DNA of 64,000 nt from Aphrocallistes beatrix (taxonomy: Eukaryota; Porifera; Hexactinellida; Sceptrulophora; Aphrocallistidae): assembly GCA_963281255.1 (NCBI GenBank), contig OY725490.1, positions 3,782,001-3,846,000 of the forward strand, given 5' to 3'. Both the position numbers and the translations under genes were made by a program. Positions 813-63,670 of this stretch are shown here, one piece after another (position 1 is the stretch's first letter; every line of letters starts with the position of its first letter). A model generated the notes under the pieces. It searched no databases, had not been told where the DNA came from, and worked only from the letters and a program-made list of their open reading frames with translations.

Positions 813-1331
813 ACCAAAAGTGAACAAACAGGAGTGATCGTTTTTTCTGAGCAGAGGCAAACCCATTTGAATGAAGTGACTAATTAGTCAGGTCAAAATA
901 GGAAGCAAATAGTCCCAACCCAAAAAAAATTGCAAGAAATAGTTTTATTGCATTTTTCAGTTGTATCATGTCTTAGGAGTAACATACTAAAAGTTTACCG
1001 AAATCATAATATCAGAAAGTGTTTTGGCACGACCCTGTCGTTGACCCCGGACTATAAAAATCGCCGGTTTTGTAAACTGAGATTTAAGCTTTCAAATGAT
1101 TGCAAATCAGTTTTTATTGTCATGTTCGTGCTCAGCATCAAACTTCCGGAAATTTGTTATGAGTATATTGACTATATTTTGACCCCTTGTTTTTCTCGGC
1201 TATGCTGCTGAGTACGAATTTCTTAATATAAGTCTAAACGTTAGTTTTAAAATATTATGGTTTGCGGCTGGTGGTATTTATGTATTTTTAACGGGAAACA
1301 TACTAATACATTTTTATTTGTCCCTTTAACT

Positions 1332-1768
1332 CAGTGTTTCCCATCCTTTATCTTTGTAACGCCCCCTAAAGTGCTTAAAACCTTCAGGAGGCCCCCATAC
1401 TTCATTATTTATTAAGTCAGAATATAATAAAATGATGAATTGGATGATGCTCTACCATATGTTCATCTGAAATTATAAGTATTAGTCTAAGTTGGAACTG
1501 TTAACTGGTAAGGATCAACTGTTAAGTGCTTGGCGCTTGGCGATCAAATGCTGACGATGTACGTTGCGGAGCTCGTTGTTATTGAGCTAGAGACACTACG
1601 ATATATGCAAGCAGCATTATATGTTGTCAAAGATAATTTAAACGTGTCTACTATTACATGTGTAACAATAAATTCTAATTCAGTGCCCCCTTCTCAACGC
1701 TCCCCACAACGCCCCTTCCTCTCCAGCGCCCCCCTGAGGCAAGCAAACGCCTCTGTTGGGAACCACTG
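1332..1768. mobile_element. hAT-type MITE inside the left arm
   Basis: The ends are CAGTGTTTCCCA and TGGGAACCACTG, typical hAT terminal inverted repeats. It is flanked by near-identical 8-bp duplications (TTTAACTC and CTTAACTC). The matching right arm of the host element lacks this segment at the corresponding point (near 3170), which shows directly that this is a later insertion. It has no transposase. Confidence 0.85.
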
Positions 1769-1871
1769 CTTAACTCCTATATGAAATATAAGAATGGAAA
1801 ATTTAGGTGGCATTGATGGATTGATATGTTCACATTTCAATTTCATCTTCGGTTTCATCATCCGATGCAAT

Positions 1872-2090
1872 TCATTCTCTCATATTGCCACAGTTGGCAT
1901 CTTGGCATCGTCCGGATGCTTGGGAACAGTTGAGTCTTTGTTTTCTGCAGCTACATCTGAGACTACTACAGCCTGTGGAACAGTTACAGTGGATCATTTT
2001 CAGGAGTGCTTCGGGTGCAGGACTACTGTCCAACATGACTGGGATTAGGCTGTTATCTTGGCAGTTCCATCCCCATTCGGTGACCACCAT
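1872..2090 (-). pseudogene. CXC cysteine-domain coding end duplicated in left arm
   Basis: Encodes VTEWGWNCQDNSLIPVML, PEALLKMIHCNCSTG and CSCRKQRLNCSQ, then further C and N residues, in the order C.C...C.C...C...C..C...C.N. This resembles tesmin/TSO1-type CXC zinc domains. It is almost the same protein text as the plus-strand copy at 2818-3054 and lies in the inverted arm. On its own it has no start and is not a gene; it is a coding end captured by a long terminal inverted repeat. Confidence 0.7.
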
Positions 2091-2136
2091 CAGCCGTGCC
2101 CATCCATAACATCACCTGGAAATAGCACCTCAGAGA

Positions 2137-3054
2137 GTGAAATTTCGTGGCGGAGGCTGTATTAATAAGGAGGATTCCTTTTCTAATCAAACTAACAAAC
2201 AGGCCCTCATCCGTATCGTTTCTGAAGATGAGAGAAAGAGGGTGTGCCTTGTAATACAGACTGAGAAGGATGCCGATGTTGACATTGTGAAGGCAGCAGT
2301 ATCAATGGCATCCTTCAAGACAACAACTCTCAAGGTGAGGATACGGATCTATCGGTTCTGTTGCTGCACTACACTCCTAACAACAATGCGAAGAAGATAT
2401 ACTTCCGCTCGGATAAAGGGAAACCAACCGTAGTGTATGACATCAAGGTGATAAAGCAGGTGCTTGCGGACGAAATCTGCCACAGCCTGCTTTTTCTGCA
2501 TGCATTCACCGGGTGTGACACCACTTCCAGCATTTTCGGGATCGGAAATAAGTCTGCTCTGTCTGTAAGTTCAAAGAGGATTCCATCTTAAAAAGCTATG
2601 CTAGGTGTTTTCTGCACCAAACCAAGACCCAGTTGTGATATAAAGCACTGGTTATAAAGTAATGATCGCGTTGTTCATGCAAAACATGTGGACATGTCTT
2701 CGCGACTTGAGATACACTATCCTCTGCAAGAAAGTGAGTGCAGCACCCGAAAGACTGTCACCTACAGCCTCCACCACGAATTTCACGCTGAGGTGCTATT
2801 TCAAGGTGATGATGTGGATGGGCACGGCTGATGGTATGGAGGTCACCGAATGGGGATGGAACTGCCAAGATAACAGCCTAATCCCAGTCATGTTGGAGAG
2901 TAACCCTGCACCCGAAGCACTCCTGAAAATGATCCACTGTAACTGTTCCACAGGCTATAGTAGTCTCAGATGTAGCTGCAGAAAACAAAGACTCAACTGT
3001 TCTCAAGCATGCGGACGATGCCAAGATGACAACTGTGACAATAAGAGAGAATGA
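2137..3054 (+). pseudogene. XPG/FEN1-like nuclease plus CXC domain, broken
   Basis: Read in pieces: DADVDIVKAAVSMASF (2270-2320), the acidic patch of XPG-type nucleases. Then KKIYFRSDKGKPTVVYDIKV and LLFLHAFTGCDTTSSIFGIG (2390-2550), which matches the FEN1/XPG helix-hairpin block (compare SGCDY...GIG). Then DLRYTILCKKVSAA, WMGTADGMEVTEWGW, and the cysteine-rich CXC end (2930-3050). The pieces lie in different frames (changes near 2335-2360 and between 2590 and 2660), so this copy is inactive. The nuclease fold is inferred from motif order. The fusion of an XPG-like nuclease to a CXC domain within long inverted repeats is the notable point. I cannot say whether the nuclease is the transposase or a passenger. 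Confidence 0.65.
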
Positions 3055-3854
3055 ATTGGATCGGATGATGAAACTGAAGATGAAATTGAAATGTGAACAT
3101 ATCAATCCATTTAGTTACCTATCCATCTATGCGACCTAAAATTTCCATTCTTATATTTCATATGAGTTAAAGGGACAAAACAAAATTTTATGAGTTTTTA
3201 AAAATACATGAATACCACGCCGCAAACCATAATATTTTAAAACTAACGTTTAGACTATTTCTATTAAGAAATTCGTACTCAGCAAGCATAGCCGAGAAAA
3301 ACGAGGGGTCACTCGATATGGCTAAATCAAATTTGGAGATCGGAATGTTTTACATTCCAGGTTGCTGCTAGGGAGGCCCCAAATTTTTTTGCTCAAAATA
3401 TATATCAAATTTCCGGAAATTTGATGCTGAGCACGAACATGACAATAAAAACTGATTTGAAACCATTTGAAAGGTTAAATCTCAGTTTTCAAAACCAGCG
3501 GTTTTATCGTCCGGGGTCAACGACAGGGTCGTGCCAAATCACTTTCTGATATTACGATTTCGGTAAACTTTTAGTATGTTACTCCTAAGACATGATACAA
3601 CGGAAAAATGCAATAAAACAATATTGACCTGACTAAATGTTCAATTTGATTGTACCTTCTGCACTGTTTTTACCCAATTCTCTCAGCTATGATGCATGGG
3701 CGTAGGAAGCTAATTTCTATTGGCCCGGCGGAGATTTTGACATTGTTGGACTTGATGAATAACATTGTAAAGTATTATAAAAATTGGTCAATTACATTGA
3801 GATTTCTCATTAACAATTCGAGATGTACTGTTTTCATGCAAATTTCAATTACAA

Positions 3855-3955
3855 CAAGGGCGCTTCGCTTGCTTGCGTTGCGCGGCTGGCGGACACTTTG
3901 TGTCTGCCGGAGGCGCCCTTTGGACGCCTGGGGTTACATTGATTAATTATAACAT
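3855..3955 (-). mobile_element. Helitron-like 3' end fragment
   Basis: Begins ACAAGGGCGCTTCGCTTGC and contains GGCGGACACTTTGTGTC, the two adjacent hairpins that mark the 3' end of the Helitron-like family in this window, in reverse orientation. Only about 100 bp remain, up to TGATTAATTATAA. Confidence 0.7.
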
Positions 3956-4763: not shown

Positions 4764-5849
4764 TCCTTACTATTAAAACTCGATTAATGTTTGTATATAT
4801 ACAAGCGCGCTTCGCTTGCTTGCGCTGCGCGGCTGGCGAACACTTCGTGTCCGCCAGAGGCTCCCTTCGGTCGCATGGAGGTGACATTGGTTAATTATAA
4901 GGGAGTGAACACCTCTAAATATGCCAACTCATCATGGAATTATGACGTCATTGTCACATTTTTAAAAGTTAAGCAACACAGTTATTCGAGCATAACTCAG
5001 CCATTATATGAGCAGGCTGAAATTTTAATAGAATATGTATACTAACATATCTCACATATGATGCAACTATTAAAAAATGATGACTCATCACTCTGTTATG
5101 ACGTCATCATTACTCATCAAAATTTTAAAAATTGACAAATTTGGTGATCTTGCGAGTGATATCGATTTTAAAACTAAGATGGACATATTTAGAGATGATA
5201 TCTCCCTTATAATTAACCAATGTCACCTCCAGGCGACCGAAGGGAGCCTCCGGCGGACACAAAGTGTCCGCCAGCCGCGCAGCGCAAGCAAGCGAAGCGC
5301 GCTTGTATATATATATATATATCTGTAACGAATTGATTGAAGAAACTGTCAGGCCCAGAAAGCTGATTTTTGGCATGCGGGAGTCTTTTAGCTATGGCTC
5401 CAGTAAGTTCTGAGCTCAGACCAAAATGTCGACTCATCATGGAATTATGACGTCATTGTCACTTTTTTAAAAGTTAAGCAATACAGTTACTCGAGCATAA
5501 CTCAGCCATTATAGGAGATAGAAGGCTGAAATTTTAATAGAATATGTATACTAACATACCTAACATATGATGCAACTATCATCAAAAAATGATGACTCAT
5601 CACTTTGTTATGACGTCATCATTACGCATCAAAAATTTTAAAATTGACAAATTTGGTGATTTTTCGAGTGATATTGATCATCACAGTAGGACAGACATAT
5701 TTAGAGATGTTATCACCCTTAAAATTAATCAATGTGACCCCAGGCGACCGAAGGGAGCCTCCGGCGGACACAAAGTAACCGCCAGCCCCGCAGCGCAAGC
5801 AAGCGAAGCGCGCTTGTATACATTAATCGAGTTTTAATACTAGTAAGGA
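4764..5849 (+). mobile_element. Composite Helitron-like element with both end motifs
   Basis: Starts TCCTTACTATTAAAACTCG and ends with its complement (CGAGTTTTAATACTAGTAAGGA), flanked by TA on both sides. Inside lie one inverted hairpin end (4803-4920), one forward hairpin end (5200-5310) and a full forward unit (5320-5815) that begins at a TA microsatellite plus CTGTAACGAATTGATTG and ends GAAGCGCGCTTGT. Between them is AT-rich filler with several TTATGACGTCATCATTA palindromes. No coding capacity beyond chance frames. Confidence 0.65.
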
Positions 5850-12868: not shown

Positions 12869-14386
12869 ATGGCCAGTATAGGATATAAGGAGTTTGATGA
12901 TCTCATCTCTAATCCCATTCCAGTTCTTCACTCTCTTGCAAGCGACCACACAGATATTCAATCTCTCCTTTGTGCATTCCAATCTATCATCAGACCTCAA
13001 ATCGATTCTATTCCTTTACTGGGAGATGTTCAAATGTCGGAATCTGAAAATAGACTTGTTAGGTTTAGAGGTATGGTACAGAATATTTCGGATCCGGTAT
13101 ACTACCTATCCACTTTATCAATTGTAAGTGAGAATGGAAATGAGTCGCGTTCTTTGCCGACTATTTTTCCAGATAGCTTCGTGCTATCAGAGGGATGGAA
13201 ACGGCAGGAAAAGTTCCCAAATCCTACAGATGAATACCACACAATTCATTCCATCTCGCCTCCCAATGAAACTGAATGGTGTAAGTCAGAATGGATGTCC
13301 AGATTTCGCAGCAAGCAGAATGAGTTCCTCAAAAGCGGGAATTCTATCAATATGCTGATGTACACTGGAGTGGATAAAATCAAACTCAATCAAGTGCTGC
13401 TCTTCTACGGCATCATCACTACAGCTGAGGACACACCCACACTACACTGTCTGCTGCACGATGTGCTCTATTACAACAACCCTCTGCTCCCGATACAGTC
13501 TTCCAATATTGATAATAATTTCATTCCTCACATGTCCATCCTCGAAGTCAGACATAAACTCCTCGAACGGCTACGATTTTGTGTTTCCGGTGATGGCCTT
13601 GCAGCAGAATATCTGTTATTCAATCTGCTCTCTCGCATCTCAGCCCGTCGCGACATCACGTTACTCGGGAAGTTTTCACTAAACATTTCACAAAGTTCCT
13701 CCGTCATCTCTAATCACCTGTCCTTCCTTTACCCACAACTCTTGACTCGCTTTCTCTACATCCCTATCTCCATCAGATCCCTCCAGGAGAAGCAGTTCGT
13801 TCCCAGCAAAGACTACTCAACTGAAAAGCTGACTACAGGCTATTTACAATTGGTAGACGATACACTAATCCTCTTGGATGAAACAAAGCTAGAGAATGGG
13901 AAGTTGGATTCCTCTGGATTGACAGCTCTCGGCGCACTCTCTGAGCTAATCAAAACTCAGTGTATCCAGTATGACTTTTCTTTCCACACTCTCCCTTTCA
14001 ACGTAGATGCTCCAGTGCTGGTAGTTACTGATGGGAAGAAGTCTATCTTTCCAGTTGATATCATTATACCGCTAGTTCCATCTGGAGATATTTCGAGTCG
14101 TCCTGAGCTATCAAAAGTTGATCTGGGTCAAATCCGTCTATTTCTGTCTGCTCTAAGGTATTTCCCCTACGATCTCGATGGAGAGTTGCAGACGATCATA
14201 CAGAAGGACTGGGTAGAGATGAGGAAAAAGGACACTGGTCTAGGTCCAGACGATCTCTCCATGCTACTTACCGTCGCTAGGTATCTAACTCTTTCCAAAG
14301 GGGAGACGAAGCTAAGTAATAAAATCTGGTCTGAAGCTAGAGACTTGGAAAACAAGAGAAATTTGAGATTAAAATCATTGAAGTAG
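12869..14386 (+). CDS. MCMBP: MCM-binding protein (mini-chromosome maintenance complex-binding protein)
   Basis: An intronless frame of 505 residues colinear with animal MCMBP (human about 642). VRFRGMVQNISDP (64-76) matches the conserved N-terminal block, CVSGDGLAAEYLLFNLLSRI (238-257) and RRDITLLGKFSLNIS the middle block, QFVPSKDYSTEKLTTGYLQL and LDETKLENGKLD the next, and the end has DWVEMRKKD and the LTVARYLTLSKGET-LS--W-EA--LE--R block. The shorter length comes mainly from the reduced low-complexity linker after about residue 145. MCMBP binds MCM3-7 and helps assemble and unload MCM2-7 complexes in the nucleus. The ATG is the first in frame. An AATAAA lies at 14703. The lack of introns next to a many-exon neighbour could mean a retrocopy or ancestral intron loss; the frame is fully open. 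Confidence 0.95.
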   Translation: MASIGYKEFDDLISNPIPVLHSLASDHTDIQSLLCAFQSIIRPQIDSIPLLGDVQMSESENRLVRFRGMVQNISDPVYYLSTLSIVSENGNESRSLPTIFPDSFVLSEGWKRQEKFPNPTDEYHTIHSISPPNETEWCKSEWMSRFRSKQNEFLKSGNSINMLMYTGVDKIKLNQVLLFYGIITTAEDTPTLHCLLHDVLYYNNPLLPIQSSNIDNNFIPHMSILEVRHKLLERLRFCVSGDGLAAEYLLFNLLSRISARRDITLLGKFSLNISQSSSVISNHLSFLYPQLLTRFLYIPISIRSLQEKQFVPSKDYSTEKLTTGYLQLVDDTLILLDETKLENGKLDSSGLTALGALSELIKTQCIQYDFSFHTLPFNVDAPVLVVTDGKKSIFPVDIIIPLVPSGDISSRPELSKVDLGQIRLFLSALRYFPYDLDGELQTIIQKDWVEMRKKDTGLGPDDLSMLLTVARYLTLSKGETKLSNKIWSEARDLENKRNLRLKSLK

Positions 14387-22100: not shown

Positions 22101-25100
22101 ATATTCAAGGGTAAATACTGCTTAAAATGTATTAATCAATCGCAATGGAATAGTTTCTTTTCCTTTATAGAATATCTATTTTACAATCACCTCTCTTATC
22201 CGGAACTCAAATTTTGATAACCTCTAAGTTTCGGGCACTAGATATTGTTTAAACTCACCCATTATACAAATTGACAGTTTTAACACTATAAACTGCTATT
22301 CAAGTTGATTTCGGAGTTACGGGCACCTCTCTTATCCGGACCTCCGATATCCGGGCACCCTCCGGTCCGGCACTGCCCGGATAAGAGAGGTTCGAGTGTA
22401 TATATATATATATATATATACAGTAAGACGACATAATTATTTAGAATCAAAGAATTCTCGAGTTCACTATATTAAATAGTCTATTTCCTGAAACGAATAG
22501 TCATAAGAAAAGTTATTTGTTAGTATTTCAATATTTAATAGGGTATCCACTATTATTCACTACCATTCTACATCTTTTGGGCATAGAATGCCAATATGGT
22601 TCCAAAAATTCCGGACTTATCCCATTCCAAATCTGTTTCAACTTGAACTCCAGTGCGGAAACTGTAGTAGGCCTTCGGTGCGGGAGCCTATTGAGTTGAT
22701 ATTTAATCCAAGCGAATAAATTCTCTATTGGATTAATATCAGGGCTTTGACTTGGCCAATCTAACAACTTCCGAGGCATATTTTCTTCCATAAACGTCTT
22801 CACAACTTTGGACGTGTGCTTAGGGTCGTTATCCTCTACAAGAAACCAGCTATTTTGATGGAAAACCTCTGCCTGGGATAGTAAATGCCATTGTAGGATT
22901 TTGCAGTATAAGACTCCTGTTAAATTCTGACGGAATATACATAAGGGAAAAGTTCCCATTGACGAAAATGCCGCCCAGATGTGCACCTTTTGGCTATGCT
23001 TCGGGACAGGTTGCCAGCGTTTTTTTCCAGCTTTTGTCCACATCTTCACCCTACCTCCATGCAACCAAAAGGAAGCTTCATCGCAAAAGATAGCATTCCT
23101 CCAGTGTTTTTCTCGTATTTCCTTGCCCAATCCATTCTTTTAATACGGTTCTTCTCGGATAGCATGAAGGTTTTAACCGGAAAGACCTTCTTGCACTGGA
23201 GTCTTGCAAGTGCTCGCTCAACAGTACGTTTACTCACGGGAATCTTTAAATTTGCATGCATATCCTTGATAGTTTTTGCTCCTTTAGACCTACGAATCTG
23301 TTGCGAACGACTTCCTTTTATTGCCTGGTACTTTACTGCTGGTCTACCCGCACCTACCCCATGTTCAAGAGTGCGGCCTGTCTTAACGCGGTTGAGTGTA
23401 TTGTAGACCGTTGCCAGACTAACGGATAAAAGTTGAGATATAGCCCTAGGAGTGTGCTTACCAACTTCGGATAATACTTGTATTTGTTCCCGCTTATGTT
23501 TCTGGGACATTAGAGAAAGTTTGTAAGCTATTTAATGAAAATATATTTAATAAAAACATAAAGATTGAAAAAAATGACAAAAACTATGAAACCTCTCAAG
23601 ATTCCACAGCCGCATCCTGTAAAGTAAAGTGCAAGTTGCTATCATAAGCAATCTAGTAGTTCCATAATACATAGAAATATAAATAAAATTGATTTCGTCT
23701 ATGACCATAACTTATTGAATTGATAGCACTTGGTTTTCTAACAAAAACAAAATTCTAAATAATTATGTCGTCCTACTGTATATATCCTTACTATTAATAC
23801 TCGATTAATGTTTATATATCATACTTGCCAACTGTCCCGTTTTTGGCGGGACGTCCCGCTTTTTTCACTCTTCTATTTAGCTAATTTTCTCGAATGTCCC
23901 GCTTTTACATGAAATTTCCCTATTATGTCCCGCTTTTTTTTACTAATGTATATTACTTTTCTATTGCGTCCCGCCATGTCCCGTGAAATTCAACGCTGCG
24001 TCCCGTTTTTATCATTGCTCAGGTTGGCATGTCTGATATATGTACAGTCGATTCCGCTTAATAGGATCACATCGGTCAGAGGACATTTTGCCCCGATATA
24101 GCGGAGAACTCTATTAACCGTAAATATTTTGTATTAGCTTCTATGTATGAGAAGTTCCAGGGTTGTTTTCAAAAATAGGATTTTTTTTATTTAACCCGAG
24201 CACGTCCAGGAATGTTGAATTGAAAGTGAAAGTTAATTGAAAGTAAACTGAAAATGAAAGTGAAAGCTGGGTCATTTCTATTTATACCTTTGACCCCAAG
24301 TAATCCTCGGGTTAAATCGAATTTTTTTTTTTAATTGCTTTTTGTGATCCATTTCAGATTTTGTTATATTATTTTGCTAATAAATCCACAATATTGAGAA
24401 TCAGATAGTTTAATAGCATATTTATGATTAATTGCAATAGGAAAATATAGAAGAGAAAATTAGTACGAAGTTTGTACCCGGACAAAAGTATTCGATCATC
24501 ACAGAAATCTCCATGCAAATAGTATTAAAGTGGATATATTCATAAAGGAATGTGTACTCAAACTGTTATAGAAATATTTTTTGATTTCTAATTCCTAATC
24601 TATACATTCCAATCACTCATAATTGAGATCCTCAACTCATTACTAACTCCCAACATTATAAATATCTACCTTTGATACTTGATGCTACTTGTCCTGAGTC
24701 ACGGTCATCATATATGATGGTGATGAGTGACACAAAATGGCAGAGGTTGATAATTTTCTACATGAGTTTTAGTATTTTTATTGAAAGTTTCAAAATTAGT
24801 AATTCAGATGTGTAGTTTACGATCTGAAATTAAAAATAGAATATTTCTTCTGTTTGAGTGCATATTCCATTATGAATAGATCCACTTTAATACTATTTGT
24901 ATGGAGATTTTCGTGGTGGTCAAATACTTTTGTCCGGGTAGTGTATATATTCACAGACATTAATCGAGTTTAATAGTAAGGATTATAATTAATTTCCTCT
25001 TCAATTACCATAATTAATTCCAGAAAAATGTTCCTAGAGCACAGTTCTAACATAGATAGGGGTTTTCTTTAATATTTATTTCTTCGCTAGTGATGAAATG

Positions 25101-41998: not shown

Positions 41999-42985
41999 AA
42001 TTCACTTTTCGCAGTATTATGAACGAACAAGAACAGCGCAAAAATATTAAAATATTATTGACTCAGGAATTACTAACTGTATGGAGTATCTCGGAGAACT
42101 CGAATTCCAAAAAGCACTGTACTAAATATTTGGTCGTGGATCGTATATCGCACGGTTTCGAAATTGAAGGATGGTCAAACCGTGAATAGGAAGATGGCTC
42201 TGGAAAAAAGTGTCAAATCAAAGGCAATGATGCTAGATCACTTTGGCTATTAAGAATCCGAAGTTATCTGTGAGGAAATTGACTTCAGAATTTAACAAAA
42301 TACGGTGTCTATCATTCTCACATGAAGCTGTAAGGAAAGAAATGAAGCGGCGCGGCTTTACCCGAAAGGTTGCTCAGAAAATTCCGATGCTTAGACAATC
42401 CCATAAAGCTTATCGTGTTCAGTGGGCTAAGGAGAACAAGAAAACCGATTGGGAAAAAGTAGTATTTAGCGATGAGATGTCTATTTGGCTAGCTGGTGGT
42501 AGGATATGTCTCTGGTGTAAGGGAGATTCGAAAGCAGTAAAACCAAATACAAAACACTCACCTAAATTGCATTTTTGGGGAGCGTTTTCAGCTCGTGGAG
42601 CATTTCCTATTAAGATTTTCCCAGAAAATCTTACCGGACAGCTCTATTGTGACATTCTACATGAATGTCTAGTGGAACAAGTGTTTTGTATCCAGATGGG
42701 TGGATTTTCCAAGAGGACAACGACCCAAAACACACATCCAAAGTCGCCAAAGGATTCATGCAAGATAGGGGTATGTATATGTAGGATGGATTGGCCTGCT
42801 TGTAGTCCGGATATGAATCCAATTGAAAATATTTGGTCGTGGATCAAGAGAAAAATCGATCTCAAGTCACCACGGAATTTGATAGAGCTCGCTGAGGTGT
42901 TGAATGACACATGGAATTCCTTAGAACCGGAGTTTTAGAACCATTTTGGACATCAATGCACAAAAGAGTCAAACTAGTAATATCA
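41999..42985 (+). pseudogene. Decayed Tc1-type transposase
   Basis: The clear part (42243-42938) reads NPKLSVRKLTSEF, then HEAVRKEMKRRGFTRK, WEKVVFSDEMSIWLAGG, HFWGAFSARGAFPIKIFPEN and DWPACSPDMNPIENIWSWIK, the order expected for a Tc1-type DDE transposase. The middle catalytic block (QEDNDPKHTSKVAKGF) is present near 42711-42760 but in another frame, and the N-terminal helix region near 42020-42240 is split by stops. It resembles the 22421-23778 transposase in layout and likely belongs to a related subgroup. I could not find its terminal inverted repeats. From 41000 to 41990 nothing else is supported. Confidence 0.85.
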
Positions 42986-43490
42986 AGTGGTGGAATAAGA
43001 TAAATTATTAAATACAATAAATTCTTTAGTGTTAGGGCATTCTATTAAAACCTGTAGAATTAAAATAGAATAAGAGTTAGAAGGTTAGGGAAGAGAAATA
43101 TTTTCCCAATAATTTCAAGTTGACAGACTATTATTCGAATACTCAGTGGACTCGTATTTCATATCAAAGCCATATTTCTACAGTTATAAATTCTTATTAA
43201 AAAAGGCTGTATGTAGACTGCAAGTCTACAACGCTTTTACAACATTTCTTATTGAATTAATGAATATCTATACCCATTTTTTTGTCTACATCCTATATCG
43301 CGGCATGTCGCGTCATTCGATCGATTTCCTTTTTGAAAGATCATCGAGTTTGAATTATGAATTTTGATGGTGTAATACACGCTAAATATAGTTTCAATAC
43401 GTAAATCAAGATATCAATGACACAACTCTTCCTATAGCACACACCTGCTAATTATAATTTAGTATCTATAAATTGGATGAACGCAACCAC

Positions 43491-46400
43491 ATGGCATTCT
43501 CACGCACTACATTTCTTTCAACGCGTACATATAAACTACTCACTAAATCTCCTTTCTATTTCCATTTCACTTCTTACAACACAAACATGACTTTGAGCCC
43601 CAATCACCCACTCATGTCCCCCACCCTCTCACACGTGCCTGCTAACGCGATGTCGCTCCCTTTCCTCAGTCACCGCGGCGCCAGCACAGACGCGCTCTTC
43701 ACCGCCTCAGGCATTCCCAGACTCCCCGTTCCGCCTTTGGATCAGACGCTGGACAAGTATCTACAGATATTGCGTCCACTAATCTCTGCAGACGACTACG
43801 AGCGCACTGAGAGAGTGGTGGAGGTGTTCAGAAGGAGAGAAGGGCCGGTGCTGCAGACTGCCCTACAAGAGAGAGCTAGAACTAGGGACAGCTGGCTGCA
43901 GCAATGGTGGCTAGAGTGCGCATACCTCGGATTCAGACTGCCGGTCGTAGTACACTCCTCTCCCGGCATTGCTGCTCTCAAGCAGGAGTTCTCTACTCAG
44001 AACCAGATGCTCTCCTTCTCTGCGAAGGTGGTGTGCTCAGCTGTTGAGTTCTACCTGGATGTGCTGGAGGGACGATTGCCACCTGACACAATGGGTTCAG
44101 TTTCTCTTGACATGAGCCAATATTCTAACATTCTCGCTACAACACGTATACCCTGTAAAAATATTGACACTCAGCGAAGAAGCAGCCGAGGAGAGAGCAA
44201 GCATATTATTGTACTTCATCAAGGCCGCTTCTTCAAAGTACCGGTTTTCTCTCGTGAAGGAGTGCCGGCTTCTCGTGAGGCTATCAGCTATCAACTGGAA
44301 CAGGTGAGTAAAGCCTTCGATAGATCCAGGTGGTGGCTCATTCACTCAGGCCACATATCCGTCTCATGTAGAATCTATTGATTCCTATAGGTTCATAATT
44401 TCTTTAGGAATAAATTAAGTGCATTTTTTAAAAAAAGCGCTTAAAACAAAATCTCAGCGAATGTTGTTTTTAATGTAAGAGTTTAATTGCCCTCCTCACT
44501 CCCTGTAGGTGTTGCTACAGAGCAATGTTCCGGCTGAGCATAAAGTGGGAATAGTAACTAGCCTACACAGAGACAAACTGGTGTCTGTGAGGGAGGAGTT
44601 GCTCTCCTCTACGACTAACAAGCAAACACTGGATCAGATAGAGACTGCCATTTTTACTCTATGCATAGACAACCCCACCCCTCCTATCCCCGCATCAGAA
44701 CTCTCTCCCCTAGCGGACTCCATAGACACCACCTCGGCAAGGATTTCACTGCATGGAAACGGAAGTGGACTGCATTCTGGAAACAGGTGGTTTGATTCTG
44801 GTGTGCAACTGCTCATCGGGAAAGATGGGTACTACGGAATGAGCTATGAGCATTCCAATGCCGACGCTCCTCCTGTCATTAAACTGTTTGAAAGTACTAT
44901 CACAGGTTCTCAGGATCCGAGTGAGGTAGTTATTTAACTTATTTTCATTGTATGACGTGATTTCTAACTAGATTGAATTCAGGGTTGGCAGGTTTTGTCC
45001 ATGTGGTAAAAACCATAGTGGTAAAAACCGTCCTGTCCAAAACCTCCTGACTGGACAAAACTGGTCAAAACCTAATTATAATACTAATGCATGTTACTTC
45101 TTACTTGTATATTTTAATAAGATGTATATAAATATGCTGAATACATAATTGAATCAATGGGCCTTCCTCCTTGTGTCATTTCAAATTGGTCAATTCAAAT
45201 AAGATAAACAATCTGCACGATAGTATTCAATTTAAATAATATCACAAATGCTTTCGATAATTATACCCCTTTGAAAGAGCATATGTACGTATACTTTATT
45301 AGAATTTAATTGGTTGAACCACACATTTTATCACTTACTGTTTCATTGTATATGTAGTCAATAGTATATTACCAACTCAAAATAAGATATCTCAACAAGT
45401 TTTATACGTTTTCAGTTTCTTATTATTCAAGGATATAGTATTGACCAGTATTGACCGGTTTTGACCAGTTTTGACCGGTAAAAACCGGGTTTTTCCCACT
45501 TGGGTTTTGTCCTTGGGTTTGAATTCTAAATCTACAACCAGTGGTTGTATAAAGCATTTAAAAATTATTGCTGGTACCCCTCCTCCCTCCCCCCAATAAA
45601 TTAATATACAAGCAACCGACAATACATCTTCATCCGATTCTGTAATTTTTTTTCTACCAGAATTCTACATGTATACACTAAATCTCTATCCAACATTCAG
45701 TCTACTTTTGTTAGTTTGTCCACGACAAGTATGCCTATTATCCGAAATTCATACTAACCGAATCTATCCAGGGGCGGCATACCCGGTTCGGCAGGTGCGG
45801 CGAGCGCCGTACCACTTTTCAGAGCGATCCGGCGTTGCCGCACATTGATTAATTATATTATAGATAACATCTCTAGATACGTCTGTCTTACTGTTGAAAT
45901 TTATAATTATAAAAGGCGAAAATGACGTCATAATTCCATGATGAGTCGACATTTTCGTCTGAGGTCATAACTTAGTGGAGCCATACCCAAAATACTAAAA
46001 AATCAGCTTTATGTGGTCTGGCAGTTTCTTCAATGTAACGAATTGATTGAAGAAACTGCCAGGCACAGAAAGCTGATTTTTTGCATGTGGGAGTCTTTTG
46101 GCTATGGCTCCACTAAGTTCTGCCCTCAGACCAAAATGTCAACTCACCATGGAATTATGACGTCAGTGTCACCTTTTATAATTAGAAATTTCAGTTTTTC
46201 GACTATAACTCAGCCATTTTAGATGATAGAATGTTTATATTAATATATCGCAAATATGGTACACTCATCACTCTGTTATGACGTCATCATTATGCATCCA
46301 AAATTTAAAAATTATCAAATTTTGTGATTTTCGAGTGATATCGATTATGACTGTAAGCAGACGCATTTAAAGATGTTATCCACCTTGTAATTAATCAATC

Positions 46401-47691
46401 TGAGTCCAGGTGCCCAGTGTCCGCCAGCCGCGCTGCGCAAGCAAGCGAAGCGCGCTTGTATATATATATACACAAACATGAATCGAGTTTTAAAGTAAGG
46501 ATGTACCATGTTTTTGTTTACAGAAGATCTAAAAAGTGAACTCCATATCCGGTTCGTTATCCGTGTTCATACTAACAAGAGCCACTGTATGCAAGTGAAT
46601 CATAATAAAATGATCAAAACCAACAATTGAGATTTGTAATTAACTACATGTATCGTGGAGGATTTATAATTACCATGCCCTATGCCCTATGCCCTAAGGC
46701 AAAAGTTATAATCTTCTTCATGTTCATATTTAATTAATCAAACGCATTCAGTCAGTTATGTTTATGTAAATTCCACTGGTTTAAATGATGTTTGTTTGCA
46801 TTCAGGGATTTTATACAAACTCAGCTATAAAAGCATTATGATGTTAAGTATTTGATACTAGTGAGGGAGCTCACTCGAATAAATTAACCCATTTAATGTT
46901 CTTGCTAGGTAATGGGATGTCCTGATCCCCAGCTTGTCATCCCTGAGGAGCTTACATGGAGTTTGTCCCCAGCCAGCAAGAGAGATATCTCTATGGCCAA
47001 TGAAGAACTAGACTTACTGGTGGCGGATACTGACTTGCAGTCCTTCAACTTCAGAGAATATGGGAAGGAAATTCCGAAGAGTTACCGCATGAGTCCGGAC
47101 AGCTATTTCCAAGTGGCGTTACAACTAGCTTACCACAAGCTGCACTCCCGCATCCCCGCTACCTATGAGAGTGGTTCTACGCGCAAGTTTTTCCAGGGCA
47201 GGACCGAGACTATCCGATCTGCCACCACTGCCTCCACTGAGTTTGTGCGAGCTATGTCTGAGAAGCAACTCTCCAACGAGAAGAGGGCGCACCTCCTGCG
47301 CCAAGCTGTGGAATCTCACCGCAACTACACCATAGCGGCTGTGAACGGACAAGGGGTGGACAGACACCTGTTGGGACTGAAGCTGATATCGAAGGAAAAG
47401 GGTATCCTCCTCCCTGAAATATTTACTGACCCCGCCTACACACACAGTCTACACATCACCCTCTCCACCAGTCAGGTACCTTCTATCCACAAGCTCGCCC
47501 TCTCATTCGGTGCTGTGGTTCCGGACGGATATGGGGTGTGTTACAGCCCTAGAGAAAATGAATTCCGTGTATGCATCAGTTCATTCAAGAGCTGCCCCAC
47601 TACCTCCACAACCGGTTTTATTCGCTGCTTAGAAGACGCCCTAATGGAAATGCAGCACACCATGTACCTGGGACAACCAGCCAAACTCTAG
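43491..47691 (+). CDS. CRAT: Carnitine O-acetyltransferase
   Basis: Three exons, all phase 0: 43491-44303, 44509-44925, 46909-47691 (670 residues; human 626). It swaps acetyl groups between CoA and carnitine. Family landmarks: PPLDQTLDKYLQ, DSWLQQWWLECAYLGFRLPV, GRFFKVPVFS, NRWFDSGVQLLIGKDGYYG, catalytic His about residue 386 in YEHSNADAPP, RTETIRSAT, the STS motif about 596-598 in LSTSQVP, and PDGYGVCYSP. The C-terminus is AKL, a peroxisomal PTS1 signal as in vertebrate CRAT. Residues 1-33 (MAFSRTTFLSTRTYKLLTKS) have Arg, Lys, Ser and Thr and no acidic residue, as in a mitochondrial leader. A second in-frame ATG near residue 34 (MTLSPNHP) could give a leaderless form. YEHS has N-A-D where most relatives have A-E-G-like residues. 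Intron 2 holds a hAT-like MITE and a Helitron-like dimer. The coding exons are more GC-rich than their surroundings. Confidence 0.96.
44980..45518. mobile_element. hAT-like MITE in CRAT intron 2
   Basis: CAGGGTTGGCAGGTTTTGTCC at left and GGTTTTGTCCTTGGGTTTG at right. Inner repeats are GGTAAAAACC and TTTTGACCAG. TTGAATT flanks both sides, so the target duplication is 7-8 bp. Confidence 0.65.
45840..46498. mobile_element. Head-to-head dimer of the Helitron-like family
   Basis: 45840-46025 is a reversed unit (GATTAATTATATTATAGATA to CTGGCAGTTTCTTCAATG) that meets, at TAACGAATTGATTG, a forward unit running to GAAGCGCGCTTGTATATATA and ending TTTAAAGTAAGGAT. The two halves pair over about 180 bp. 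The left neighbour is a GC-rich piece (GGGGCGGCATACCCGGTTCGG) at 45775-45840. Confidence 0.65.
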
Positions 47692-52279: not shown

Positions 52280-53165
52280 TGACATTTGGTTACACTAAAA
52301 TCCGTTACACGACATTTGGTTACAGACAATTCGTTACAAGACAATTCGCTACTAATTTGATTGGCCAATTCGTAAGTAGATAAGGAATTGCTCCCCTTTA
52401 GCAGTCTGTTGATAGTCCGGAGGGAAGATGAGCTCCTCCAGGCTAAGAGGTTGTACTGGTGCTGCAAGTTCTCGCTCTCTTTGACGCTGAATAGTACGCT
52501 TGAGACTGGTTAACTTTGGTAACTTAACAGAAACTCCCTCAGACACAGTGATGAGACTATTCCCTAAGATGTGATGCGAACTATCCTGCGTTTCACTCGC
52601 TTTCCTCTTCAAACCTAGTTTTACTTCATGACAAGTAACCACCTGTGTATCTGGTTCATGGAGATGTTCATTGGTACGCTTAACAATCCATATTCCCTTC
52701 GTATGAATTCTAGCTTTGCAGACTCCTCTTCTCTCGCATTGCCAATGAATAACTTCTCCCACTCTCCTCTGTTGTCCAAAAATAAATCCTCCTTCTATCA
52801 TCTTAGAGCCCCCTCTTGATGATTCGATCAGTCTAAATGACTGGTGATTTCCTGAATTTGTAGCTGTTGCCATTTTTGATGCGAAGTAAGAAGAAATGAA
52901 AATGAACTTAATTCAAACGTTCACTATTTATTTTGTAGATGAACTAGTGTAGGAAAACCTTAAATTTCAACACAGGTGACATAAAATAATTACACACAAA
53001 TTTTCTATGATTTTAAACAATAACTTTGAAGTGTTTAGAATTGGCCAATCAAATTAGTAGCGAAATGTCGTGTAACGTAATGTCACAGTAGCGAATTGTC
53101 ATGTAACGAATTGTCTGTAACCAAATGTCGTGTAACGGATTGTCGTGTAACCAAATGTCGGTATC
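52280..53165 (-). mobile_element. Short MULE-type element with FLYWCH gene piece
   Basis: The ends carry inverted clusters of GACATTTGGTTACA, CGACAATTCGTTAC and TAGTAGCGAA. Both inner arms end at GAATTGGCCAATCAAATTAG. It sits inside the left palindrome arm and CCAATTAC occurs on both sides, an 8-9 bp target duplication, the size MULEs make. The uninterrupted right palindrome arm (AGTAATTGGTGCTTAATTG, near 53640) shows the empty site. The DDE part of a transposase is missing, so it is non-autonomous. Confidence 0.8.
52352..52873 (-). CDS. FLYWCH zinc-finger protein, N-terminal piece of a MULE-type transposase
   Basis: 173 codons from ATG 52873. Residues about 25-75 form a FLYWCH domain: GGFIFGQQRRVGEVIHWQCE, then GVCKARI, IWIVKRTNEHLHEP, giving the C..C..H.H zinc set (WQC, VCKA, EHLH). 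After a linker (GLKRKASETQDSS), residues about 115-165 (KLPKLTSLKRTIQRQRERE, LSLEELIFPPDYQQT) match the segment that links FLYWCH to the DDE core in many animal MULE proteins. The frame then ends inside the terminal repeat. It is either a shortened gene or a DNA-binding-only product; such pieces can act as repressors of the parent element, which is inference. An upstream A/T-rich leader is present, and no intron is seen. Confidence 0.8.
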   Translation of the reverse strand: MATATNSGNHQSFRLIESSRGGSKMIEGGFIFGQQRRVGEVIHWQCERRGVCKARIHTKGIWIVKRTNEHLHEPDTQVVTCHEVKLGLKRKASETQDSSHHILGNSLITVSEGVSVKLPKLTSLKRTIQRQRERELAAPVQPLSLEELIFPPDYQQTAKGEQFLIYLRIGQSN

Positions 53166-53897: not shown

Positions 53898-56636
53898 GCT
53901 GTTTATGTATGTTCCAAGCATTTCAAAAATGGAGACATTGAATATACACACAAAATACCCAATGGTGACTATCGGGAAATCCCGCGAAAGTGAAAAAAGC
54001 TAAAAGAAGGTGCAGTACCATCTATTCTACCAGGATGTCCATCTTACTATTCATCACACTCAGGAACTAAACGCTCTCGTCTATCCCTCGAGTCTAAAGA
54101 TGATGAACTCCTCTCTCAAGCAATGAGTCTCAGCATAATATCAAATGCTGAGGAGAATAAGAAGTTTCTGATCTACACTTTCCAAGACCTGCAAGATAAG
54201 TTACCACTTCTTTCTATTTATGAAACATGGTCATTCTGGTATCCGAATCCAAGTACATTAGTGTTTATGCGCCCGAAGCTAGATACTAGCAATATTTCCA
54301 TTGATGTTTACTTATCAGTAGAATTTGATTTGTCTGTCAAAGCATATCGCAAAGGTGAAATCTTTCCAATATCTCAAATATATCTTAGTGACACTCGCCA
54401 ACTAGAAAAGCTATTAAAAGAAATTTCTATTTCACCTCTTAGCACTACAGAAACGAAAAATAACTCTTCCAATTCTAATTCCAATGATTTTCATATTGCA
54501 TCTGCACAAATTCGCATCCAACAAGTTATCGATAAAGTCCAGGCTAATGTGCCTGAGGACGAATTGCATAATTGTCCAGAAATTTGTAGACTTCAATTTA
54601 TTAACTGCCAACTTGAAAACAGTCTGATACCGAAAAATAGGCGGCGCTATAACATATTGACACAAATTTTGTCACTCAAAACACATTTAATTTCACCTAC
54701 GTGTTATAGATATCTCCAGCGTATGTCCTGCTTATCACTGCCACACTTTAACATTGGAAAAATTGTATTCCTCCTTTGGACTTGAGAATGTCTTTTCTTA
54801 GACAATCAACGAAATCGTTTTCCCCAGAGCAAAAGCATGTGATCATTCAAATGGATGAGATACATGTAAAATCGGATATTTCTTACAAAGGTGGTAAAAT
54901 ATTTGGTTCAAATCTCGATTCTGATGATCGTACGAAAACTGTTTTCGCCATTATGGTGTCCAGTCTATATAAGAAATGGTCTTGTATCGTCCGTCTACTT
55001 CCATGTGCATCTGTATCAGCTGAAAAGTTATTTGACATCATCAAATCATGTATTCGTGATGTTGAGGAATGTGGTCTATTCGTTCATGTCATATCTACTG
55101 GTAACTACCCCCTAAATGTTAAACTTTTCAAATTGTTTTCTACTCTCGGGAAATTGGAAACAAGGGTTCCACATCCTAATGATATACATAGAAGCCTTTT
55201 CTTGACATTTGACTTTGTGCACATTCTTAAAACAATTCGCAATAATTGGTTGAATCAACAATCTGAAAGTAAACTCTTTTCGTATCCTGATTTAAATTGT
55301 ATTTCTATTGATCAATGTACAAATCCTTTGAAAAAACACTTTGCTTCTTTTCGTGACATTCGAATGCTATATAATTCTGAAAAGGATAGCTTGGCAAAAC
55401 TAGCTCCACGTTTGACTTTAAAGTCGTGTTATCCATCCATTCTTGAACATCAAAATGTTAAGTTGGTGCTAAAAGTAATTCATGAATCCACCATTGCTGC
55501 TCTGGCTATTCAAAATGAACAACGCAGTCCAGCATTTAAGTGCCACACATCCGAATTTGTTCAGATTCTTTTATCTCTTTGGAAAATCTTTAATGTCAAT
55601 GTACCGGGTTGCATATTCGATTGAATGATCCATTGTCTAGTCCTTTGACATTTAATAATGAGCGCTTTGTTTTCTTACCCGCACTGTATATTGGTTGGAA
55701 GCTTGGCAATCACTACCTGAGAAAGTTGGGAAACTGAGCAAGCAGACCTTTACAAGCTTAAGACATACATGCCTTGCGTTGCCTGAGATTACAAATTTCC
55801 TAACTGAGAACTGTAGTTATTCTTATCTCTTAACATCTTCCTTACAGACAGACCCGTTAGAACATCTTTTTGGTTTATATCGTATGATGTCAGCGGCAAA
55901 TGATCACATTTCCTATTTTCAGATTTTAGAATTAGAGCATCGTCTTAAAGTATTCAATATCTTAAACTTGTTTTCCAAGCAAACCGTTTCTAGTACAACA
56001 TGTTTACAAGAGTTTATTCAATCCTTCTCTTCAATAGAAAGTACAGATTGTAACATTGAAGTTGATTTAGATCCATTATTGAGTACAATATCAGACCTCT
56101 CTACCATTGAGTATGACATCCAGGTACTTCAGTCCTTAGCATCTATTGCTGGCTATTCAATACCTACATCGTTACTTCAAATGTTCTCAGCTTTGTCTTA
56201 TACAAGTATGTCGGGATATCTTAACTCTCGAAAAAGATCTCTTATTGATGATATGTCTCTGGCTCAATTCAAACTATTAGACCTCTCTGATCATGGATCT
56301 ATAAAATATCCATCTGAGATGGTACTAGAATGTATCGTAATTGTCTGGAAGATTTTCGTTAACATTGAAAATGATGATGAACTCTTGATGCAATTAATTG
56401 AAGGACCATCCAGGAAAATTCTTATTGAATTATCAATACATTATATAATGGCTAGTGAACATTGTGATTTATGGAATAAAGTCTGTTCTTCTTGTGCTGC
56501 AAGTGGCTCTTACATCCTTCAGAAACTTATATTCGTAGCTGTTAACTGTTTTTTAGCAAACAAAATTAAAAATTATAATTCACTTGTAGTTGCCAAGGGT
56601 GTGGAGAAGCGGAAACTGAAAAAATTTAACAAATAG
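53898..56636 (+). pseudogene. THAP/P-element-like transposase, broken into several frames
   Basis: At 53898-53990 VCSKHFKNGDIEYTHKIPNG is the C-terminal half of a THAP zinc domain, followed by LKEGAVPSILPGCPS, the usual continuation. 54123-54785 holds the linker (NAEENKKFLIYTFQDLQDKL). 54776-55624 carries IIQMDEIHVKSDISYKGGKI (catalytic D), then HVISTGNYPLNVKLF and TFDFVHILKTIRNNW, the P-element RNase-H-like core. 55695-56636 carries SLQTDPLEHLFGLYRMMSAA (catalytic E region) and continues to KFNK. Frame changes near 54000-54120, 54780 and 55625-55695 make it inactive as it stands. It belongs to the P superfamily. The right-hand terminal repeat was not found. The left end may be duplicated in the palindrome at 52066-53852. 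Confidence 0.85.
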
Positions 56637-57225: not shown

Positions 57226-57768
57226 TCCTTACTATTAAAACTCGATTAATGTATATTTATTTATATATATATATATCTGTAACGAATTGATTGAAGAAAC
57301 TGGCGGGCACAGAAAGCTAATTTTTGGCATGTGGGAGTCTTTTGGCTATGGCTCCAGTAAGTTCTGAGCTCAGATCAAAATGTCGACTCATCATGGAATT
57401 ATGACGTCATTGTCACATTTTTAAAAGTTAAGCAACACAGTTATTCGGGCATAACTCAGCTATTATAGGAGATAGAAGGCTGAAATTTTAATAGAATATG
57501 TATACTAACATACCTCACATATGATGTGACTTTCATCAAAAATGATGACTCATCACTTTGTTATGACGTCATCATTACGCATCAAAAATTTTAAAATTGA
57601 CAAATTTGGTGATTTTTCGAGTGATATCGATTAGTACAGTAGGACAGACATATTTAGAGATGCTTTCTCCCTTATAATTAACCAATGTGACCACAGGCGA
57701 CCGAAGGGAGCCTCCGGCGGACACGAAGTGTCCGCCAGCCGCGCAGCGCAAGCAAGCGAACGCGCTTG
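57226..57768 (+). mobile_element. Helitron-like non-autonomous copy
   Basis: TCCTTACTATTAAAACTCG, short TA run, CTGTAACGAATTGATTGAAG, standard body, hairpin GGCGGACACGAAGTGTCCGCC, and end AACGCGCTTG before T. A complete unit of 543 bp. Confidence 0.82.
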
Positions 57769-58545
57769 TACTCAATGAAGCTCCCAATTATTTTAATACA
57801 ACATTGCAAAATTTCAAATTCCTAAAAGTGGAATTTTCAATATCTTCTAAATTATAGATCCGGATATTGATATTTAGAAACATATATCGTGAAAGATATG
57901 TAGTACAGCTTCTGATAGATCGTAAAGTAAGCATTATTAAGGCGCAGTGATATTTATTTTTATAGGCGATCATGAGTCATTAGCTAAGTAGGTGCGAAAT
58001 TTATGTTTTAACCTCTGACCAGGACCATCGTTTTTCAAATTGAGAGGGTTTCCCCTCTCGATTTTTGATGGTCTTTTCCCATGAATACCGTTTTTTCAAT
58101 GCACTTTTATATATTCAATTTTTACCAAAAATATTTACTAGTACTGTAAGTAGTGTATTTATTTGGTTCTATAGAAATTTACTGAAAAGGGACACTTTCC
58201 TTGTTGTTTTTCGAAAATGTATCTCAAAAGGTGTTAAAATACAGGGTGACAAATACATACTGTTACCTTTTTCATTGGCTATTAAATCTAAAATACTATT
58301 CCTAAGGTTCTGAAAAAATCAAAGGATGTTCATAGATAGATTAAGATTCTATTTTTATAATATCACTCAAATATATCTCCTTTAGCATGAATACAATCCT
58401 TTAGACGGCTAATGAACTAGTCGACACTAGCACGCACGTGATTTTTCCTCCATTCTCGGGTCAAAGCTATCTTCAGCTCATGTTCACTCCTGTATGTTTT
58501 AGAGCAAACCTGATCTTCCAAGATTGACCAAATAGAATAATCCAT
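57769..58545. other. Stretch without recognised gene
   Basis: AT-rich DNA. The frame at 58065-58313 (82 codons) has no known motif, though AACCTCTGACCAGGACCATCG and the AGATCTTCCAAG-like text near 58510 could be part of an old repeat. Nothing supported. Confidence 0.4.
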
Positions 58546-59390: not shown

Positions 59391-60981
59391 TTAAGATGTA
59401 TATATTTGGAAACTGTTTTCAATTGGGGTACGACACACCGGGCAAGGTAGCCCTAGTTCCTCGATTTGCTTGCTACATCCAGTACAACAATTTGCATGTC
59501 TGCAAGGTAAGAAAATCCAAGTTTCTACTCGATGATTCAGACAAACAGCACATGTATTCGTATTATTAGGCAATAATTCTTCCTCTACTTCTGACGTTTC
59601 TGAAACATCTGAATATTCTATGTCTACTGAATTTATATTTCCTATTGTGTCACTCATCGCTTTCAGGTATTCCAAAGGTGTATATATGCCCGTTGTTAAC
59701 TTATGTTTACAAACTGCGCGACGCTCATCATTGATAATGTTTTTTACCTTTTTCTTGGACGGCTGATTTCCATTCCACGACAAACCCTCTCAATCTCGTT
59801 ATCTGTATCAGCGATTATTTCGTTTAAAATTGCAATGAAGTTCCATATTCTTGGATGGCTACAAATAATTCTCGCTTTGAGCTTAGCGTGGTAGCTTTCG
59901 GCTCCATTATTAGTTGTAATATCTGAATCAAATATCGATAGTTCTTCTGCACTTATTTGACCGAGCCACCTTTTTCTAAAGTATTTCTTTAGACTTGGTA
60001 ATCGCGGTTATCAGAGAGATCAGGAGACTGTAAGAGGTTATAAGTCTGCTCTATAGCATTAGCTGGCAGAAAGGGGATAGCCATTAAACAGCGTACATAT
60101 GTTGCAAAGTCGTGATTTTCATAATACGTCTGTGCGAGACCGATCTTCTGAGTTTTTTGCCAAATACGCTTAGTAAAATGAAACCAGCAGCCAAAATTTC
60201 TTACATTTGGATAAGCTTCTTTGAATGCATTCCTTGGAGCTGCTTCCCAGTCTGACATCGATACTAGATGCTGAAAATGGGGTACAAGGGTGCGGATCTC
60301 ATGTAATACTGCCTTATATAGTTCTTGGTCTTTATTTGTCATCAGACAATGTATGCCAGGTAAAGAATAACGACCAACAGTTATAAAAATCGTCCACAGC
60401 TGATAAAATTGGACAGGTACCGTATAAAAAGTCCCATCAAATTGAATGCTACTTATTTGTGGTAAGGAATCTTTCAGTTTATTTGAGAAGAAAATTATTG
60501 CAGTATGGTTATTCACAGACACACTGCTTCTACAAAACTGCCCAAACGTCGTAGTCGGTAGCATCTCTGAAAATTCGGTAGCATTTGCTGGAATCTTAGG
60601 CTGTAACATTCTTCTGGAGCGATACATGGAAGATTCACATTCGCTAAATGAGACACTTGATCCAGCCGAATCTTCTCTTGTCATGTCATCAAAAATCTTG
60701 CGTAAGCTATCTTGCGAATTTCGAGCCTTAATTTTGCATTTCGATTTTAATTCATAAGATGCACTTTTGTATTCTACTAAGCCGTGGTTATGTGAGGCAA
60801 TCGGAGAAATCAAGTTTGTATCCATATCCAACTTCGCCGTCGCTTTACAACCATCCCTGAAGAGAACGCATTTCAAATAAGTTTTGTTTTGTTTTACTTT
60901 GCATTTCAGATATTTGTGCTCATCTGTTGTTGTAAAGACTCGCCCAATGTGACGTCGATAATAGCCAATTATGTATTCCAT
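59391..60981 (-). pseudogene. MULE transposase with FLYWCH-like N-terminus and C-terminal RING finger
   Basis: From ATG 60981: a FLYWCH-like zinc part (YLKCVLFRDGCKATAKL ... SHNHG, residues 35-67), then the MULE core with FDGTFYTVPVQFYQLWTIF (catalytic D182), SMSDWEAAPRNAFKEAYPNV (D244) and FGCWFHFTKRIWQ. The frame stops near 59989, but the next frame continues SLKKYFRKRWLGQISAEEL and TTNNGAESYHAKLKARI, the conserved N-N-x-x-E-S-x-H block with the third acidic residue. A second shift near 59770 leads into 59391-59783, which ends with a C3HC4 RING: C78, C81, C94, H96, C100, C103, C114, C117 (TCAVCLNHRVETWIFLPCRH ... PCPVCRTP). So two frame breaks, otherwise whole. A RING in a transposase tail would suggest ubiquitin-ligase activity; that role is inference. 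The relic at 402-812 is a relative. Confidence 0.85.
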
Positions 60982-61129
60982 AAAAAAATTAGTAGAAATT
61001 AATACTTTGGAGATGTTACAAAAATATTATATAGTGAATTTATGTTGCTATTGTTCTCACTATTCTTGATGAGAGACATAACAAAATCCAAACTCATCAT
61101 CGTAAGGTTTCAATACTATAGAATGTGAA

Positions 61130-62020: not shown

Positions 62021-62499
62021 GAACTAATGCAGCGTCCCCATTTTTCCGTTGTATCATGTCTTAGGAGTAACATACTAAAAGTTTACCGAAATCGGAGTAT
62101 CAGAATGTGATTTGCCACGACCCCGTCGTTGACCCCGAACTATAAAAATCGCCGGTTTTGAAAATTGAGTTTAACCTTTCAAATGATTGCAAATCAGTTT
62201 TTTATAATTTGATACATATATAGACTATATTTTGAGCAAAATTTTGGGCCCTCCCTAGCAACAGCCTGGAATGTAAAAATTCTGATCCCCAAATTTGGTG
62301 TAAACCATATCGAGTGACCCCTTGTTTTTCTCGGCTATGCTTGCTGAGTACGAATTTCTTAATATATATAGTCTAAACGTTAGTTTTAAAATATTATGGT
62401 TTGCGATTGGTGGTATTCATGTATTTTTAGCATAGATGGATTGATATGTTCACATTTCAATACCATCTTCGGTTTCGTCATCTGATGCAATTCCTTCTT

Positions 62500-63494: not shown

Positions 63495-63670
63495 TCCTGA
63501 AAATGATCCACTGGACCTGTTCCACAGGCTATAGTAGTTTCAGATATAGCTGCAGAAAACAAGGACTCAACTGTTCTCAAGCATGCGGACGATGCCAAGA
63601 TAACAACATTGGCAATATGAAAGAAGGAATTGCATCAGATGACGAAACCGAAGATGGTATTGAAATGTGA
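63430..63670 (+). pseudogene. CXC-coding end duplicated in right arm, copy 2
   Basis: Inverse of the left-arm CXC end: GATGATGTGGATGGGCATGG, then text coding for CSTGYSS-like, QNKDSTVLKHADDAK-like and the GNMKEGIASDDETEDG tail. As in copy 1 it lacks its own start and is part of the long terminal repeat. Confidence 0.6.

Follow-up and report, generated by a model that had tools for sequence, protein, structure and literature searches.

A 64,000-bp stretch of the genome of the sponge Aphrocallistes beatrix (C3:3782001-3846000, hereafter the window) contains a predicted XPG-type nuclease piece joined to a cysteine-rich, CXC-like tail and enclosed in long inverted arms, which raises the question of whether this arrangement is a mobile element and, if so, whether it represents an undescribed transposon family, as the preliminary description had proposed, or a form of a known one. 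The window was analysed within the whole assembly (100.5 Mb, 28 contigs), in which most copies were examined as 3-kb loci or as coordinates only.

Layout and genomic copies of the element

A complete element of 2,751 bp, including a nested insert, occupies positions 885-3635 and has AAT on either side; the span first proposed for it, 886-3640, identified a real element but was off by 1 and 5 bases at its ends. Its parts, together with a second copy, are given below in window positions.

882-884, no strand: left target-site duplication, 3 bp, AAT (flank comparison)
885-3635, plus strand: whole element, with end A on the left; its right end is B-like and shortened by a small internal deletion
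885-2161, plus strand: left inverted arm, comprising end A, a 3' untranslated-like stretch and the mirrored cysteine-rich coding end, split by the nested insert
1332-1768, no strand: nested hAT-like (as read) miniature insert with ends CAGTG...CACTG, boundaries within about 2 bases
1875-2111, minus strand: mirrored C-terminal cysteine-rich coding end of the left arm (C3:3783875-3784111, minus strand; 26% identity to the L070 tail, E 7.8e-5)
2162-2762, plus strand: centre, a broken XPG/FEN1-type nuclease piece
2763-3635, plus strand: right inverted arm, including the C-terminal coding end
2938-3051, plus strand: CXC-like cysteine-rich text, then a stop (open frame to 3051)
3636-3638, no strand: right target-site duplication, 3 bp, AAT (flank comparison)
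62039-64000, minus strand: second copy of the same palindromic layout, running past the window end to 64169

The left arm measures 842 bp without the nested insert (about 1.28 kb with it) and the right arm 873 bp, so the initial estimate of 0.9-1.2 kb was roughly right; the two are 95.5% identical over 775 aligned columns. Their complementary blocks include 1816-2090 with 2836-3110 and 939-1059 with 3502-3622, at 96% each. Read outward, each arm is a C-terminal coding end with a cysteine-rich tail, and the proposal that the arms include the CXC-coding end was borne out by the text at 2938-3051 (plus strand) and within 1875-2111 (minus strand). Leaving the nested insert aside, the arms account for about 1.7 of the 2.3 kb of this copy, giving it the long inverted arms of a foldback element, and a length of about 2.3 kb is typical of the family, whose 52 end pairs span a median of 2,314 bp. 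The nuclease motifs DADVDIVKAA (2269-2298, plus strand) and HAFTGCDTTSSIFG (2499-2540, plus strand) start in different frames; the gene of the window copy is therefore broken, and owing to this frame change its nuclease-CXC piece would probably not yield a working protein. The second copy, which makes two in 64 kb as had been counted, has its far end at C3:3846169 (64169 in window numbering), lacks the outermost bases at its near end and has its nuclease text at 63025-63066 and 63267-63296 (minus strand).

The nested insert (about 436 bp) was read as hAT-like on account of its ends and an imperfect 8-bp flanking repeat, and relatives of 1334-1769 among the fetched loci were confined to pieces in L067. 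Elsewhere in the window, Pfam matches identified two Tc1/mariner-type transposase genes, one at 22528-23139 (minus strand; DDE_3), which has an adjacent frame reaching 23531 and is seemingly split over two frames, and one at 42237-42938 (plus strand; DDE_3 and HTH_Tnp_Tc3_2). A P-element-like transposase lies at 54752-55624 (plus strand) among open frames running from 53994 to 56636, with a TNP-like RNase H match at 54752-55621 and no Pfam match for the adjoining 55662-56633. Pfam also recognised a FLYWCH frame (52352-52912, minus strand), a MULE-type transposase frame (59989-61026, minus strand) and two host genes, encoding an MCM-binding protein (12869-14386, plus strand) and a carnitine acyltransferase (43458-47691, plus strand). 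At another locus, L076, a frame judged by eye to be FLYWCH/MULE-like adjoins a nuclease piece. Additionally, a short G+C-rich repeat of about 100 bp occurs in both orientations, partly as close inverted pairs, at 3854-3952 and about ten more places (for example 4801-4900, 5207-5306, 5719-5817 and 57672-57769). An Rfam search of the window gave no match at the gathering threshold.

Across the genome, a 57-residue block of the nuclease gave 127 protein matches at E<=0.001, located at 115 places (149 of 149 first-look candidates scored), and the 603-bp centre gave at least 42 DNA matches (40 of 122 candidates scored). The two termini are distinct: ends A and B have TAGTCAGGTCAA in common and then diverge for about 25-30 bp. 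Allowing up to 3 mismatches, end A was found at 95 places and end B at 100, with no genome-wide match for the reversed-pattern control of either. When these ends were paired by position, 52 facing A-B pairs were obtained within 8 kb, with no same-orientation, A-A or B-B pair at that distance. Nine of the A-B pairs span over 3.9 kb, for example C17:2045861-2050032 and C2:6461138-6466121, and may hold nested inserts or a coding partner. Target-site duplications were scored in 19 of 21 two-ended copies drawn from 69 partly overlapping loci, 16 of them of 3 bp and 3 of 4 bp. The remaining two were L010 (CTA/ATA) and L003, for which the script had taken the wrong right end; with the proper right end, the flanks of L003 are ATA/ATA. 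As a control, flanks taken from different copies agreed in 12 of 420 pairings.

The genome-wide search thus defined both termini together with a 3-bp, sometimes 4-bp, target duplication, and the original identification of a transposon stands. The outcome named as counting against it, copies showing a host nuclease-CXC gene with conserved introns and without arms, belongs to the rival reading of a host gene family with pseudogenes and with arms arising through chance or misassembly. The protein text is conserved, and a 50-codon block of it is stop-free in 31 of 33 distinct gapless sequences; the precise ends, the duplications, the numbers of end copies and the strict A-B pairing contradict this reading and leave it extremely improbable.

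Two further observations concern individual copies. L047 (C18:1858352-1861966) and L048 (C1:4096216-4099830) have identical alignment coordinates and identical arms on two contigs, which we read as a recent duplication or assembly redundancy. A second subfamily, L081-L084, consists of copies that are 96-99% alike in their main alignments and in which a single arm includes the CXC part; given this likeness, their movement was recent on that scale. Viral contigs, scanned once for relatives, yielded none.

The nuclease, its tail and the longer relatives

The protein text HA[FL]TGCDT... is familiar from automatic invertebrate gene models. The longer relatives L071 and L073 have the acidic series that FEN1/XPG enzymes would be expected to show (xDG, xD.Y, EAD, DTD, TGCDT...G), with positions that we take to correspond to FEN1 residues. 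A profile of transposon pieces (set A1; 9 supplied, 8 retained by the program) was compared by hhalign with a profile of three XPG_I host proteins (L074, L075 and L085, of which L074 was read as XPG and L075 as EXO1), giving a probability of 87.2%, a score of 47.4 and an E of 3.9e-6; a second set of 8 pieces (A2) gave 75.9%, 43.6 and 2.3e-5. The pieces included the window-family frames L014, L034 and L025. Against A1, 100 column-shuffled host profiles reached at most 0.8% and a score of 19.9, and the reversed host profile 0.7% and 19.3, these two kinds of altered host profile being the only controls. The DxD and GCD...GxGxxxA motifs, common to the FEN1/XPG/EXO1/GEN1 family and the element, fall in register between the two profiles. 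By this comparison the element protein belongs with the XPG/EXO1 family as a predicted nuclease, in keeping with the motifs first noticed. It differs from the FEN1/XPG family in lacking a Pfam XPG_I match, and the window family has a broken piece only. XPG_I itself had 5 matches over the genome, none at a known transposon copy, and searches of Pfam, NCBIfam and PDB with single proteins and profiles returned nothing convincing for either the nuclease or the N-terminal part (in PDB, 18 chance-like rows with a best E of 0.12).

A codon test was applied to the 50-codon nuclease block, using 33 distinct sequences among 48 gapless matches out of 58 loci supplied. The ratio of non-synonymous to synonymous changes was 46 to 15 among singleton variants (1.09 of neutral) and 22 to 16 among shared ones (0.49 of neutral), numbers that are too small to rely on; they hint that the source of the block may formerly have been coding.

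The cysteine-rich tail follows a CxC..C..CxC..C..C order in L070, L071 and L078 and is less regular in the window copy. This order resembles that of the CXC/TCR (tesmin/TSO1) domain, so the spacing supports the CXC-like character suggested at the outset, but the tail falls below the curated cut-off of PF03638 (TCR), with a best result of 15.3 bits against 23.5 (E 0.025, in one relative). Searched over the genome, PF03638 had one match, also under the cut-off (E 0.545), and the database searches with single proteins and profiles likewise gave the tail no match above threshold. The frame of L073 ends without a cysteine-rich tail, and the tail is therefore not universal.

The longer relatives indicate what a coding parent may have looked like. 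L073 (C2:1341500-1347500) contains an element of 4.58 kb whose terminal repeats are 348 bp long and 94.6% identical, with flanks TAC/TAC and ends reading TAGACAGGGCA, as against TAGTCAGGTCA in the window family. Within it, two long open stretches of 665 and 509 residues lie in one frame with one stop between them. Its close sibling L077 (C12:3327000-3331000) carries a frame of 626 residues, one section of which has no counterpart in L073 at the same place, so that the complete gene must be longer than in L073. L072 has 335-bp terminal repeats (97.9% identical) and flanks read as GTA/GTA, and L071 is a longer sibling of L072 with nuclease and cysteine-rich tail. In L070, terminal repeats surround a nuclease-tail gene and a target duplication is not visible. 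The terminal repeats of L070, L072 and L073 lie outside the coding frames; coding arms characterise the window family. About 2 kb upstream of the nuclease-tail element, L070 also has frames reading QQGFTKYCCFLCLWDSR... (3-540 of that locus, plus strand) without a Pfam match, a text that we take to be the transposon-like one frequent in arthropod and cnidarian gene models.

These relatives bear on a second alternative, namely that the XPG-type nuclease-CXC protein itself transposes without a DDD/E transposase and defines a separate superfamily. The nuclease is indeed the sole recognisable enzyme in the relatives, and no Pfam DDE model fits L077, L080 or L073, whereas the same library does recognise transposases of Tc1, MULE and P type within the window. 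The region upstream of the nuclease, present in L073, L077 and L080, had no match over the cut-off in Pfam or NCBIfam, and a search for a DDD/E triad in pieces of L077, L080 and L071 gave a poor alignment in which no triad was seen. However, the long upstream frames of L073 (665 residues) and L077 (626 residues) could house a diverged transposase, and FEN1/XPG enzymes are not known to integrate DNA. The duplication length and the nuclease moreover fit a described group of DDD/E elements, discussed below, and a separate superfamily is accordingly unlikely.

Homogenised arms and both orientations of the centre

Both CXC arms exceed 300 bp in 14 of the 30 loci examined, and at these 14 loci the arms of one copy are on average 95.6% identical, as compared with 92.0-92.5% for arms of different copies. 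Between copies, left arms are no closer to left arms than to right arms. An arm's own partner was its closest relative in 18 of 26 cases, a result whose observed mean was reached by none of 10,000 permutations (the identical pair L047/L048 being entered once); the other 8 of the 26 arms were nearer to an arm of another copy.

The centre occurs in both orientations relative to the polar ends. Among the 115 places, end B lies upstream of the nuclease text in 50, end A in 29 and no recognised end in 36, with no conflicting labels; counted by rows (127), the figures are 54, 33 and 40, the last group lacking a recognised end within 2.6 kb. Orientation changes 10 times, or 9-10 times in bootstrap trees, on a tree that comprises 33 labelled copies from the 46 loci supplied. 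Its labels come from 97 of the 127 rows, without 23 of the lowest and 7 higher ones, so that L064, for one, is absent. Only 4 of the 30 inner branches are well supported, and these force at least 3 of the changes, the clearest case being L036 as against L022, L023, L028 and L032 (support 100/100). Orientation labels are unclustered on the tree, shuffled labels giving values as low in 406-426 of 500 trials, which fits frequent flipping and fits a poorly resolved tree as well. Additionally, the interiors of L081 and L082 are 96.2% alike when aligned inverted, although the ends of both copies are placed alike, with B at the left and A at the right. In some copies the orientation of the centre may be an assembly error, although the 28 contigs per 100 Mb suggest a long-read assembly.

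Inversion by recombination between the arms would explain both the homogenisation of the arms and the presence of both centre orientations. Exchange of a single end by conversion would produce A-A or B-B copies, of which there were none, unless such copies are immobile.

A different reason for the persistence of the palindromic form would be silencing. In maize, Mu killer gives rise to a hairpin transcript, from which small RNAs silence the coding parent, and by analogy the palindrome could be retained here as a hairpin transcript yielding putative small RNAs against its own parent. RNA from 1779-3170 is predicted to pair nearly end to end (-844.8 kcal/mol, a value without shuffled comparison), and the arms do stay alike within copies. 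Recombination alone suffices for homogenised arms, however, and L081-L084 have spread although just one of their arms includes the CXC part, so that a silencing role appears very unlikely.

Classification and significance

Academ transposons carry an XPG nuclease and a Cys8 zinc finger. AcademH was reportedly named, and AcademX treated, by Kojima (2020, Mob DNA 11:15). Among foldback elements, FB and Galileo of Drosophila, as well as Tetris, have very long inverted arms and a short middle. Their likeness to the present family is one of layout, and the window family differs in its protein-coding arms, its polar A and B ends and its 3- to 4-bp duplication. AcademX has 3- or 4-bp target duplications and a nuclease, whereas AcademH has 9- or 10-bp duplications and a helicase, the duplication length being tied to the encoded enzyme (PMC10045372); Academ is listed among the DDD/E transposase superfamilies (PMC9587614). 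The duplications of the window family are of 3 bp in 16 and of 4 bp in 3 of the 21 two-ended copies, and the profile comparison with its controls supplies the encoded nuclease. On these two features, the window family is a likely member of the AcademX lineage of the Academ superfamily. The designation as an undescribed family is therefore probably wrong. Among the papers searched, none pairs Academ with XPG, and none pairs a CXC domain with XPG and a transposase.

The element in the window, as distinct from the AcademX elements described, is non-autonomous and palindromic, a derivative and not a founding form. No autonomous partner with the exact A and B ends was found; the upstream region of L077 has 8 matches at 6 loci, all more than 14 kb from recognised A or B ends. 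Taken as a whole, the evidence makes it likely that the family is a non-autonomous, palindromic (foldback) derivative of an Academ superfamily transposon from the nuclease-bearing AcademX lineage. In the proposed history, the terminal part of a coding parent on one side, together with the end of its coding region and the CXC-like tail, would have been duplicated as an inverted copy at the opposite terminus. An inner nuclease fragment would thereby have come to lie between the two arms, with roughly the outermost 30 bp remaining unlike as ends A and B. As the palindromic form has no complete gene, it was presumably moved in trans by the transposase of a parent, which would have made the target duplications of 3 bp and occasionally 4 bp. 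The arms within a copy may then have been kept similar by recombining with each other, a process that may also have inverted the centre again and again.

A more far-reaching possibility is that the GEN1/FEN1-like element nuclease serves in the mobility cycle by acting on branched DNA. The palindromic arms would be its substrate, extruding or pairing at excision, and resolution of the junction by the nuclease would both spread the element and flip its centre. We consider this quite unlikely; if true, the recurrent inversion of the centre would record the action of a structure-specific nuclease in transposition, beyond host recombination alone.

What is new is a palindromic derivative with polar ends, homogenised arms and a centre found in both orientations. 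The anonymous protein text can now be assigned to transposons whose ends and target duplications are defined, and a single genome holding the two ends in 95 and 100 copies makes the fate of long inverted arms, both their homogenisation and the flipping of the middle, readable. Overall, the family offers a test bed for the role of an accessory XPG-type nuclease in transposition.
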